Source: Mycobacterium sherrisii
Lineage (GTDB): Bacteria; Actinomycetota; Actinomycetes; Mycobacteriales; Mycobacteriaceae
Direction of reading: 5' to 3'
DNA length: 64,000 nt
Assembly: GCF_002102355.1 (NCBI RefSeq)
Contig: NZ_LQPT01000099.1
Location: forward strand, 1-64,000
Shown: positions 53,806-57,751 of the stretch, piece by piece
How the letters are laid out: the number at the start of each line of letters is the position of its first letter
Position numbering within the stretch: position 1 is the stretch's first letter
Program-made: the position numbers and the translations under genes
Notes under the pieces: model-generated
What the model saw: only the letters and a program-made list of their open reading frames with translations
Database searches by the model: none
Told to the model about the DNA's origin: nothing

Positions 53806-53818
53806 GAAACGGTGTTCC
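53806..53818. promoter_or_regulatory. Candidate BioQ-like half palindrome upstream of bioB
   Basis: Minus strand GGAAC-ACC-GTTTC resembles the mycobacterial BioQ box (consensus TGAAC-N3-GTTCA, as I recall) with mismatches. It lies between bioB and the small gene at 53870. Only suggestive. Confidence 0.25.
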
Positions 53819-53869
53819 AAGAAGGGTAACGGCCGTAGTACGACGAGCCCGTTGGGGTATACCGCCATC

Positions 53870-54049
53870 ATGTCCGCTTCGCACGTCGAGTACCTGGCAC
53901 ACCACATGCTGCTGCTGGCCGCTCCGGCGTTCCTGCCGGCGGTCGTCGTCGTCGCGGTGATCCTCTACGTGGCGTTGCGGGACCGTCGCGACGGGCAAAC
54001 CGACGAGACCTCTGCGGAGGACGACATTCCGGCCGAAAAGCGTGATTAA
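53870..54049 (+). CDS. Small single-helix membrane protein, unknown
   Basis: 59 residues: MSASHVEYLAHHMLLLAA opens with His/Tyr residues, then one transmembrane helix (about 14-35), then a charged cytoplasmic tail rich in Asp, Glu and Arg. No known family recognised. It lies 93 bases before the membrane-protein operon on the same strand and may be part of it; three His near the outer face are notable given the Cu-like context downstream. The start ATG 53870 is preferred to an in-frame TTG at 53852. Confidence 0.55.
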   Translation: MSASHVEYLAHHMLLLAAPAFLPAVVVVAVILYVALRDRRDGQTDETSAEDDIPAEKRD

Positions 54050-54142: not shown

Positions 54143-56026
54143 ATGACGGACATGACAATGGTGTCGGAGCTGTCGGAAACGTCGCAGGCGTCAGAAGTCT
54201 CCGGGGCGCTGCAGCTTATCGCCGAACCGGCGGCGCGCGGCGCCGGACTCAATCAAGTGATCGGGCTGTCCGTCGCTGCCCTGGTGATCACGCTGATCAT
54301 GCTGTGGATTGGTTACGCACATCGGACTCATCGGATCACCTGGCTGACCCGCGTCGCCGACAAGCTCGGCGAAAAGTTCCGCCGGCCGAACTGGGTGGCG
54401 CTTCCGGTGCTGATCTTCACCACCTCGATCATCTGCGCCCTATTCGGGTTCATCTGGGACGTCAGCTGGCACATCGGCAACGGCCGCGACCCGGGGCCGC
54501 TGGCCAACCCGGCGCACTACTTCATCATCATCGGTTTATTCGGGGTGTTCCTGGGCGGCGTGGTCTCGATGGTGATCCCGTTCGAAAAGCCCGGTCCGGC
54601 CGCGGTGCGCATCACCCGCAACTGGTACGCGCCGGTCGGCGCCGTGCTGATGGCGGCGTGCGGACTGTACGCGATGATCGGATTCCCGCTCGACGACATT
54701 TGGCACCGAATCTTTGGTCAAGACGTGACCCTTTGGGGCCCAACGCATTTGATGATGATCGGCGGAGCCTGTTTCTCGCTGTTCGCGGTGTTGATGCTGG
54801 AGCGTGAAGGCGAAGCGGTGCAGGCCATCGAGGCCGCCCATGGGGCATTCATCACCTTCCTGCGCTACCTGTCGTTCGGCGGGATGTTCATCGGATTATC
54901 GGTCTACCAAATCGAATACGACTTCGGCGTTGAGCAGTTCCGCCTGGCGTTGCAACCGATGATGATCTCCTTCGCAGCCGCGCTGGCGGCCGTGGCCGCC
55001 CGCATCACCATGGGCCGTGGCGCGGCGATCATCGCGGCGTTGTTCGCCATCGCGCTGCGCGGTGTGGTCGCGTTGCTGGTGGGCCCCGTCCTGGGTGCGC
55101 CGATCAACTGGTTCCCGCTGTACTTGGGCCCCGCCCTCGTGGTCGAGGTGATCGCGCTGACTCCACTCTTCAAGCGCCCCATCGTCTTTGGGGTCGTCTC
55201 CGGTCTGGCGGTGGGCACCGTCGGGCTGTGGCTGGAGTCGCTGTGGATCGGGGCGGTGTACCACTACCCGTGGCCGGTCAGCATGTGGGGCGAGGCCCTG
55301 GCCATGGCGGTGCCGGTGGCGGTGCTCGCCGGAACCTGCGGCGCGCTGTTCGGCATGGTGCTCACCGGTCAGCGGCTGCCGCGGCGTTCGGTCGGCATCT
55401 CCGTGGTGGTGGCGACCGTCCTGGTCGTCGGCGGCGCGGTGGCCAACGGACTGCACATCGTGGTGCCCCAGCACGCCAAGGCGGCGATCACGCTTACCAA
55501 GTTGCCCAGCCCGCCCGGGCAGCGCATGGTGTCGGCCGACATCCAACTGACACCGGCGAATATCGTTGGTGCTCAACCGGATTGGGTGACCGTGTTGTCG
55601 TGGCAGGGCCGAATGGAAAACCAGCGCGGACTGGTCATCGACCGCCTCGAAAAGGTCGGCCCCGGCCACTACCGCACCACCGCGCCGGTGCCGGTCTGGG
55701 GATCGTGGAAGACGCTGCTGCGAATTCAGGACGGCTACACGATGACGGGCGTCCCGATCTACGAACCGGCCGACGACGCCATCCCGGCGGCCGAAGTGCC
55801 CGCCCTGTCGTCGATCGACCGGCCTTTCGTCCCGGAGATCACCATCTTGCAGCGGGAGCGCGACCAGAACACCCCAACCTGGCTGTTCACCGCCGGAGGC
55901 ATCGTGGTGCTCATCCTGTCGCTGCTGGTGATTGCCGGCCTGACCTGGGGCGCGGGCCGCATCAACAATGCCCTGTCCGAGCCGGAACCGGTCGAGCAAA
56001 AGCAGCCGTTACCGCGGGCGGCGTGA
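54143..56026 (+). CDS. Large polytopic membrane protein with duplicated Asp/His motif
   Basis: 627 residues, no family that I can name. About eleven to twelve helices span 35-440, then an extracytoplasmic domain (about 445-585; segments such as [15 protein letters not shown] and [16 protein letters not shown] look like a beta-sandwich) and one last helix (about 580-602). Two copies of a motif D-x2-W-H-x3-G-x-D-x5/8-P-x-H-x3-(I/M)-G occur: [12 protein letters not shown] then [10 protein letters not shown] (Asp106, His110, Asp116, His125), and [12 protein letters not shown] then GPTHLMMIG (Asp184, His188, Asp194, His202). They suggest intramembrane metal sites. ATG 54143 follows GAGGGAGG, though GTG 54107 is open too. 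Followed by a cupredoxin-like lipoprotein and a second membrane protein. Confidence 0.75.
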
Positions 56027-56030
56027 GGCG

Positions 56031-56405
56031 ATGACGTTGCGGACGATGCACGGCACGCTGGTTGCGGTGTGGGTGACGGTGTTGACCTGCGCGCTGGTGG
56101 GCTGTAGCGGCAAAACCGATCAGGCCGGCGCGCCCGGCGCGTTGGACGTCAACGTGACCATCTCGCACGGTCAGGTCGACCCGACCAACGCCACGTTGCA
56201 GGCCAAGGTCAAGCAACCGATCACCCTGCACGTCGCCAGCGACGTCACCGACGAGCTGCACGTCCACTCGGTGCCCGATCACAAGTTCCAAGTCGCGGCC
56301 CAGCCCGACCAGATCTTCCGTTTCACCGTCGACGTCCCCGGCAATGTCGACGTCGAGCTGCACCACCTGGACCGCACGATAGCGACCATTCACGTCCAGC
56401 CGTGA
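56031..56405 (+). CDS. Cupredoxin-like lipoprotein
   Basis: 124 residues. A lipoprotein signal peptide ends in the lipobox ALVGC (Cys25), so after Lgt the protein is anchored to the outer face of the inner membrane. The rest is a small beta-sandwich of cupredoxin type: DVNVTISHGQVDP, ITLHVASDVTDELHVH, FRFTVDVPGNVDVELHH. His77, His79, His84, His111, His112 and His121 could bind copper, but the Cys and Met of blue copper sites are missing. It lies four bases after the large membrane gene and overlaps the next by four bases, so all three are made together. Confidence 0.75.
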   Translation: MTLRTMHGTLVAVWVTVLTCALVGCSGKTDQAGAPGALDVNVTISHGQVDPTNATLQAKVKQPITLHVASDVTDELHVHSVPDHKFQVAAQPDQIFRFTVDVPGNVDVELHHLDRTIATIHVQP

Positions 56406-57751
56406 CGCTGCTCGCGCACGGTTTGGGCGGGTCGAGCGATCTGCCGGTGCCCTACATGTACGCGATGGTGGGCGCGGCCTGGGCGCTGACGTTCACCTTC
56501 GCCCTGGTCGCCTTCGCGTGGAAGCGTCCGCGGTTTGATCCGGACGCACCCGGTCGCCCCCTGCCGGCGTGGGTGACGAAGGTGGTCGACGCGCGCGCCA
56601 CCCGCTGGACGGCGGCAAGCCTGGCCCTGGTGTTCGCGGTGTGGGCGGTGCTGGCCGGCGTGTGGGGTCCGCAAACCCAACGCAATCCCCTGCTGGGGTC
56701 GTTTTACGTGCTGCTGTGGGTCGGGTTGGTGCCGCTGTCGCTGGCCTTCGGACCGATGTGGCGGGTGCTTTCCCCGATCCGCACGGTGTATTTGCTGCTG
56801 CGTCGCGTCATGCCGGAGGCGCTGAGCCGTCCGCGTGCCGCCTATCCGCAGAGTTGGGGGTACCGCCCGGCCGCGGTCGGCTTGCTCGCGTTCGTGTGGC
56901 TGGAGCTGGCGAGCCCGAATTCGGCGTCACTGACGTGGGTGCGCGGCTGGCTGTTGATCTACGCGGTGCTATTGCTGGTCGGGGCGTGGCTGTGCGGGCA
57001 GCGATGGCTGGCCCGGGCCGACCCGTTCGCCGTGTACAGCATGGCGGTGTCGCGGCTTTCGCCGTTTCGCCGCTCGACGGCCAGCGGACGAATCGTCCTG
57101 GGCAACCCGTTCGACCATCTGCCGTCGCTGCCGGTGCGACCCGGTGTGGTTGGCGTGCTCGCGGTGCTGCTCGGTTCGACGGCTTTCGACAGCTTCTCGT
57201 CGTCGCCGACGTGGCGCAACTTCGCCGATGGGCTGTCCCGGTCGGCTCATGTCGTACCGGCGTCGCTGATGCCGTCGGCGTTGCGAACGGCAGGCCTGCT
57301 GGTCTTCATTTCGGTTGTCGCGCTGACCTTTTCGTTGGCAGCGCGGGCGACCGGCGGCGTGGACCGGGCACAGCGTCGCGCGTTGCCCGGGCAGCTGGCG
57401 CACTCGCTGATCCCGATCGTGGTGGGCTACATCTTCGCCCACTATCTGTCCTATCTGGTGGAGCGTGGCCAGCAGACCGTCATCGCCCTCGCCGACCCGT
57501 TCGGGCACGGCTGGAACCTGTTGGGGCTGGCGCATCTGCAGGTGGCCTACGTGCTGTCCCAGCACCCGCCGGTGCTGGCCGCGATCAAGGTGATCTGCGT
57601 GGTGACCGGGCACATCGTCGCGGTCATCGCCGCCCACGACCGAGCGCTGCGGCTGTTGCCGGCCGGTCACCAGCTCACCGGGCAGCTCACCATGATGCTG
57701 GTGATGGTCGGTTACACCTTCACCGGGCTGTACTTGCTGTTCGGTGGCTAA
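56402..57751 (+). CDS. Polytopic membrane protein, third gene of the cupredoxin operon
   Basis: 449 residues, about eleven to twelve helices, no family that I can name. The N-terminus TLLAHGLGGSSDLPVPY and His-containing segments HSLIPIVVGYIFAHYLSYLV, LAHLQVAYVLSQHPP and TGHIVAVIAAHDRALR in the C-terminal half suggest metal or haem ligands in the membrane. GTG 56402 overlaps the lipoprotein stop (GTGA). Its TAA overlaps the TAG of the convergent RNA-ligase-like gene. It is probably the transmembrane partner of the lipoprotein. Confidence 0.75.
   Translation: MTLLAHGLGGSSDLPVPYMYAMVGAAWALTFTFALVAFAWKRPRFDPDAPGRPLPAWVTKVVDARATRWTAASLALVFAVWAVLAGVWGPQTQRNPLLGSFYVLLWVGLVPLSLAFGPMWRVLSPIRTVYLLLRRVMPEALSRPRAAYPQSWGYRPAAVGLLAFVWLELASPNSASLTWVRGWLLIYAVLLLVGAWLCGQRWLARADPFAVYSMAVSRLSPFRRSTASGRIVLGNPFDHLPSLPVRPGVVGVLAVLLGSTAFDSFSSSPTWRNFADGLSRSAHVVPASLMPSALRTAGLLVFISVVALTFSLAARATGGVDRAQRRALPGQLAHSLIPIVVGYIFAHYLSYLVERGQQTVIALADPFGHGWNLLGLAHLQVAYVLSQHPPVLAAIKVICVVTGHIVAVIAAHDRALRLLPAGHQLTGQLTMMLVMVGYTFTGLYLLFGG

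Follow-up and report, generated by a model that had tools for sequence, protein, structure and literature searches.

What is the function of a compact group of membrane-protein genes that lies beside bioB in Mycobacterium sherrisii? The window (the whole 64,000-nucleotide stretch of contig NZ_LQPT01000099.1 that was analysed) contains open reading frames (ORFs) for two polytopic proteins, M1 and M2, and a lipoprotein, Lp, with a 4-base gap between M1 and Lp and a 4-base overlap between Lp and M2. These ORFs, their coordinates and their spacing agree with a first-pass annotation made from the sequence alone, which described a three-gene operon; the three genes are real, but a fourth member of the module, Sm, was overlooked (Table 1). 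None of the four proteins matched a Pfam or NCBIfam family above cut-off. The best reading of their sequences is that M1 would be a divergent copper membrane oxidase or monooxygenase with PmoC-like and PmoA-like parts, and that Lp and M2 would supply its copper. More broadly, we consider it somewhat probable that this is a new branch of the PmoC/AmoC superfamily, a membrane oxidase or monooxygenase that depends on copper and is encoded in one operon with the proteins that supply the metal.

M1 comprises a PmoC-like N-terminal half, a transmembrane (TM) bundle that resembles PmoA in structure only, a beta domain and a last TM segment. According to the accessible part of PMC12576850, the copper ligands of PmoC are Asp156, His160 and His173 at CuC and Asn227, His231 and His245 at CuD, with Arg165 in the pocket; the CuC ligands are also given in the accessible part of PMC7584546. 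Residues D106, H110, R115 and H125 and residues D184, H188 and H202 of M1 correspond in order to these positions. Like PmoC, AmoC and HmoC (PF04896), M1 has two hairpins bearing D-x3-H-x(12-14)-H and [N/D]-x3-H-x13-H, an arginine at +9, the same motif order and a nearly equal distance between motifs (71 residues in Methylococcus capsulatus PmoC, 73 in HmoC of M. chubuense NBB4, 78 in M1). At CuC, D106, H110 and H125 align and are kept in 58/58 sequences, with x14 spacing in M1 compared with x12 in PmoC. At CuD, both histidines fall at the exact PmoC spacing, aligned at low posterior, and the asparagine is replaced by aspartate (D184) in 58/58; the second motif stretch of NBB4 HmoC reads NEFGHSFFQAEEVFSAPLHW. 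M1 further differs from the PmoC family in its fused extra domains, its sub-cut-off Pfam score and an identity of only about 12–19% in the extended alignment. Across the 58 distinct M1-family sequences, D106, H110, R115, H125, D184, W187, H188, G192, D194, P200 and H202 are identical. These sequences were gathered by homology searches and then required to match at least one motif pattern (L156 was left out), so the conservation of one motif is partly due to selection; the eight members admitted on one motif alone also keep the residues of the other. Loci L153–L156 represent distant M1 subfamilies of about 400–520 residues; L153–L155 have the x12 spacing, the inter-motif distance is 71 in L153 and L155, and L155 has weak FixH and AmoC matches within one protein.

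The statistical strength of the resemblance depended on the depth of the alignments. In hhalign comparisons with AmoC/PmoC, an alignment of 20 mycobacterial M1 sequences gave no significant result (E 0.46; 0.25), and deeper M1 alignments gave E-values of 4.4e-4 and 6.8e-5, or 1.5e-4 to 4.8e-4 when the PmoC side was a more diverse set of 11 sequences. None of the column-shuffled decoys (100 global and 100 local per alignment; best 27.9 and 28.9) reached the observed scores of 37.8 and 43.6, and the reversed controls were lower still (17.9 and 14.8). When the alignment was extended (threshold 0.01) or made global, the second M1 motif fell on the CuD residues of HmoC, at low posterior; the global M1–HmoC run had an E-value of 0.0053 and a probability of 2.9%. 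A profile of 26 N-terminal halves (A11), searched against 177,635 distinct PDB sequences, had a single significant match, the ammonia monooxygenase subunit C 9cl6_C (sequence E 8.3e-4, best single stretch 0.0078), followed by an unrelated runner-up at 0.26; other AmoC/PmoC chains did not turn up in this search. Single-sequence Pfam scans of the 26 relatives recovered AmoC in only two (best E 0.032) and LtrA in one (7.8e-5), and the N-terminal half from the window matched DctQ at 0.0019, under the cut-off of that family. The window M1 had no match to PF04896 (cut-off 26.7 bits), the L155 protein matched it below cut-off (E 0.23, 11.2 bits), and the genome from which the window derives contained no AmoC match. 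Independently of the sequence profiles, comparison of the predicted M1 structure picked pMMO. The homology of the N-terminal half to PmoC and the alignment of its ligands (good at CuC, of low posterior at CuD) are supported, and the domain would be of PmoC type, with a pair of helical hairpins carrying two sites that may bind copper.

The remainder of M1 is less readily placed. Its TM bundle lacks significant sequence similarity to PmoA of pMMO (7s4l chain B) and is part of a longer chain, not a separate subunit. The beta domain gave no significant match to PmoB or HmoB, and no equivalent of CuB (His33, His137, His139) was recognised in it; H509, the one histidine of this domain that was checked, is kept in 15/58 sequences. 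Lp carries an HVH motif, but by eye it occupies another position in the fold. Copper membrane monooxygenases (CuMMOs; pMMO, AMO and HMO) are usually encoded as xmoCAB, with C, A and B subunits, whereas the window has one 627-residue chain together with Sm, Lp and M2. Because M1 lacks the three subunits, scores under the Pfam cut-off and has no recognised PmoB part, it was not classed as a CuMMO; it does share the PmoC domain with its copper motifs, and could function in a similar way. A bolder proposal is that M1 unites a complete copper monooxygenase in a single polypeptide, its C, A and beta (B-like) parts colinear with xmoCAB. It would then represent a new architectural type, carried on the chromosome by most mycobacterial species and by sporadic lineages of Actinomycetota, with a dedicated copper-loading pair that is also used by true actinobacterial CuMMOs. 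We advance this tentatively, as an appreciable possibility that falls short of being probable.

Table 1. Features of the M1 module and its upstream region, in window coordinates
Feature	Position	Strand	Description
Candidate -10 box	53858..53863	+	TATACC adjoining the Sm start codon, predicted from sequence (leaderless layout)
Sm	53870..54049	+	59 residues, single hydrophobic segment, fourth module member
M1	54143..56026	+	627-residue polytopic protein, ATG start
M1 residues 106-125	54458..54517	+	First metal motif, D106-x3-H110-x4-R115-D116-x8-H125, aligned with PmoC CuC (Asp156, His160, Arg165, His173)
M1 residues 184-202	54692..54748	+	Second metal motif, D184-x3-H188-x13-H202, aligned at low posterior with PmoC CuD (Asn227, His231, His245)
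M1 residues 227-437	54821..55453	+	TM bundle; predicted model aligns with PmoA of pMMO, and the last TM contributes to this match
M1 residues 440-563	55460..55831	+	Beta domain ahead of the last TM (579-611)
Lp	56031..56405	+	124-residue lipoprotein, predicted to be cupredoxin-like
M2	56402..57751	+	449-residue polytopic protein, GTG start

Lp has a lipobox, ALVGC (identified by eye), with the cysteine at position 25. In 18 aligned Lp sequences, D71, H77, H79 and E109 are invariant and H111 nearly so. The mature protein has eight histidines, not six as first counted, and its proposed cupredoxin-like nature is backed only by a sub-threshold match to Cupredoxin_1 (PF13473; 16.7 bits, E 0.0074, cut-off 27 bits). 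In M2, H6, D263, H347, H404 and H412 are invariant among 21 aligned sequences; its predicted model had no confident fold match. The likely role of Lp–M2 resembles that of CopC/CopD, PCu(A)C, PmoD and further copper handlers of the periplasm, in that a copper-binding extracytoplasmic protein would stand beside a polytopic partner. The pair differs from these systems in that M2 has no family match over cut-off and Lp reaches Cupredoxin_1 only below threshold.

M2 homologues occurred in 56 plasmid records and HmoC homologues in 10; M2 was present on 4/4 actinobacterial plasmid records carrying HmoC, and none of the other six HmoC records (Methylocystis, Nitrosomonas, Methylomagnum) was among the M2-bearing plasmid matches listed. 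In the HMO clusters (hmoCAB) of M. chubuense NBB4, M. dioxanotrophicus PH-06 and Rhodococcus WAY2 and ZPP, which encode a true three-subunit CuMMO where the window operon has M1, the M2 homologues are 37–53% identical and lie within about 1–10 kb of hmoCAB (ca. 1 kb before hmoC in PH-06, ca. 7.6 kb from the hmo genes in WAY2 and ca. 9.4 kb in ZPP). An Lp-like ORF precedes M2 on the NBB4, PH-06 and WAY2 plasmids by alignment, and on ZPP an ORF of equal size occupies this place. On NBB4, Lp lies 4.5 kb downstream of hmoB and adjoins sigC; on both the NBB4 and PH-06 plasmids, sigC precedes Lp by one or two genes. The accessible part of PMC7924339 describes SigC as a copper-starvation sigma factor in M. 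tuberculosis. The PH-06 plasmid also encodes a histidine-rich lipoprotein-like protein between sigC and Lp (L106, 7338-8396).

Among 30 M2 loci from Actinomycetes genomes, an Lp-profile match adjoins M2 in 25, and the neighbours include CopC, SCO1/SenC, a single-chain CopC-CopD-FixH protein and beta-helix proteins. The 115 neighbours of 20 M2 loci comprised CopC (4), DUF1775 (2) and CopD (2), the commonest being WS/DGAT (8), aldehyde dehydrogenase (5) and TetR (5). M2 homologues of about 27–31% identity also occur far beyond actinobacteria, in haloarchaea, Rhizobium and Sulfitobacter (L104, L105 and plasmid matches); the Sulfitobacter homologue adjoins PCu(A)C, and no annotated copper gene adjoins that of Haladaptatus. 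Both copper motifs in the PmoC-type domain of M1, and the nearness of Lp–M2 to CuMMO genes and in certain genomes to copper genes, support the copper theme of the first-pass annotation. The same domain and linkage favour its alternative guess of an undescribed oxidase- or monooxygenase-like complex, while its option of pure copper capture and transfer suits Lp–M2 better than M1.

M1, Lp, M2 and Sm form a conserved module under purifying selection. In 100 loci (including the window itself and duplicates, with 85 distinct M1 translations and some loci ending early), tblastn recovered Lp and M2 in 97 each and Sm in 94; an absence of co-occurrence among related genomes, which would have spoken against the first-pass annotation, was not seen. 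The closest relatives share the order Sm-M1-Lp-M2 with bioB nearby, and others show M1-Sm-Lp-M2, with Sm between M1 and Lp and no bioB in the locus (e.g., L084, L088, L090–L097, L099 and L100). Thus, the module is conserved and its location is not. The NG86 dN/dS values relative to M. montefiorense were 0.14 for M1, 0.20 for Lp, 0.15 for M2 and 0.44 for Sm, compared with 0.07 for bioB. The module may be broken in M. genavense (L028, 9197-10093), where the best M2 piece spans residues 1–302 only, and in G076 (L003), where one M1 match shows an internal TGA. In a 3.2-Mb genome of the same genus, M1 is present only as fragments with stop codons, ca. 73–90% identical (G089:C72:38872-39563), and this is gene decay in a reduced genome.

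M1 matches (E <= 0.001) were found in 105 of the 148 genomes of the genus, comprising 102 full-length genes, two weak distant matches (G043, G052) and the G089 fragments; the 43 genomes with no match include several single-contig assemblies rated 99–100% complete (e.g., G002, G009, G016). The resemblance of M1 to a fused, simpler relative of the methane- and ammonia-oxidising copper enzymes, with a likely pair for copper delivery at its side, suggests an unrecognised copper oxidase in many mycobacteria. Among 394 Actinomycetes genomes, the M1 profile A1 matched 65, of which 57 were strong by a 150-bit cut that we set, and M2 was found in 127. M2 accompanied 56/57 strong M1 matches compared with 71/337 other genomes (Fisher p 4e-31, a guide only since the genomes are related), and the sole exception, G273, is 86% complete. 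PF04896 matched only 1/394 genomes, below cut-off; therefore, M2 is not confined to CuMMO hosts. A profile of a distant subfamily of about 500 residues (A7), present in 33/296 Actinomycetota genomes, recovered the window M1 at E 6.2e-12, and the two were accordingly placed in a single superfamily. The 16 M1 loci from beyond or at the margin of the genus comprised seven with adjacent Lp and M2, one with Lp at a contig edge and eight with no nearby Lp–M2. In other actinobacterial families, divergent MerR-type regulators lie beside or near M1, recognised by Pfam (L137, 2157-2927; L144, 8261-9109) or by their start sequence (L138, 7196-7960; L147, 8189-8998). On the M. vanbaalenii JOB5 plasmid (L102, 14543-31323), M1 lies near CopC, CbtA, heme-copper oxidase subunit III and an oxidase assembly protein, with Lp–M2 ca. 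8 kb away.

In the window, the module is bordered on the left by bioB, on the opposite strand, and on the right by a LigT-like gene followed by bioD. AGGGAGG lies just upstream of the M1 start codon. Sm has a sub-threshold match to CoxB (E 0.011). By eye, GGGTAT stands immediately 5' of the Sm start in 13 of 15 aligned upstream regions and the longer TATAC in 7/15; TATACC may thus be a -10 box in a leaderless layout. Between bioB and Sm, positions 53812-53834 form a conserved stretch, AAAGTAGGGTAACGGCC, exact in 10/15 upstream regions by eye and present as a variant in the window. Together with the preceding TGAAC, we take it to resemble a biotin-repressor (BioQ) operator, as a candidate only. 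Two small unannotated proteins are encoded after hmoB (L101, 4130-4683; L106, 14643-15280), the first with LAHGGQ and one hydrophobic segment. The small protein in this position on the NBB4 and PH-06 plasmids resembles Sm by eye, and such proteins are candidate extra HMO subunits.

Other explanations of these observations were weighed against catalysis. Copper acquisition or homeostasis is one, with M1 as a PmoC-derived store or mover of copper and Lp–M2 capturing it outside in a role like that of CopC/CopD. The occurrence of CopC, CopD and SCO1 among Lp–M2 neighbours and of PCu(A)C in Sulfitobacter, the CopC that adjoins M1 on the JOB5 plasmid and the proximity of Lp on two plasmids to sigC, whose product answers copper starvation in M. 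tuberculosis (PMC7924339, accessible part), are all consistent with it. However, both PmoC-type motifs of M1 are invariant at near-PmoC spacing and are accompanied by the arginine of the CuC/CuD pocket, a residue that a transport path would not obviously need, and we regard this explanation as unlikely, if still a serious contender.

An accessory or assembly module in which M1 and M2 load copper into heme-copper respiratory oxidases appears improbable. It would account for the JOB5 plasmid, where M1 is near heme-copper oxidase subunit III, a TlpA-family protein and a cytochrome c oxidase assembly protein, for the weak, sub-cut-off resemblance of Sm to a CoxB segment and for the SCO1 adjoining one M2. 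Nevertheless, that association was seen in one M1 locus only, no oxidase family is among the 25 of 131 families listed for 102 neighbours at 27 M1 loci, and M1 is missing from several near-complete genomes of the genus. Genomes of the genus with no M1 presumably still respire with heme-copper oxidases. Convergence, by which M1 would belong to a membrane family with D-x3-H metal motifs unrelated to CuMMOs, is likewise improbable in our judgement. The confident alignment spans only about 46–50 columns, the identity is low when it is extended, and Pfam gives no detection of the PmoC family over cut-off; yet the 200 decoys per alignment never attain the observed score, both motifs are in register, an AMO C subunit ranked first in an unbiased PDB search, the independent model comparison picked pMMO and the partner gene lies near CuMMO operons.

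If M1 is a copper-dependent oxidase or monooxygenase, the module might work as follows. M1 would be the enzyme, with two copper sites in its PmoC-type half; the model comparison suggests that a PmoA-like helical bundle follows in the same chain, and its beta domain would presumably lie outside the membrane. Lp, tethered on the outer side, could bind copper through its conserved HVH and E-x-H and pass it to M2, which would load M1; Lp–M2 is assigned this role because of its linkage to CuMMO genes and to some copper genes. The quinol pool has been proposed as the electron source for CuMMOs, and M1 may similarly activate O2 at one or two of its PmoC-domain copper sites with electrons from quinol. 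Some small hydrophobic molecule would be the probable substrate, and Sm might be a single-helix accessory or structural subunit.

The literature searches made, which covered open-licence PMC papers and took in parts of PMC9038741 and PMC8784404, turned up no published description of the M1 module or of the Lp–M2 pair.

CuMMOs power methane oxidation and nitrification, and few lineages are known to have them. If our interpretation is correct, a one-chain relative that has both copper motifs of PmoC, and that occurs in further classes of Actinomycetota besides its full-length copies in 102 of 148 sampled genomes of the genus, would widen this superfamily, and M1 would offer a simpler protein in which to address the disputed site of the active copper of pMMO. 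Lp–M2 would become a candidate for loading copper into the CuMMOs of actinobacteria, and mycobacteria would gain an unsuspected capacity for copper-dependent oxidation.

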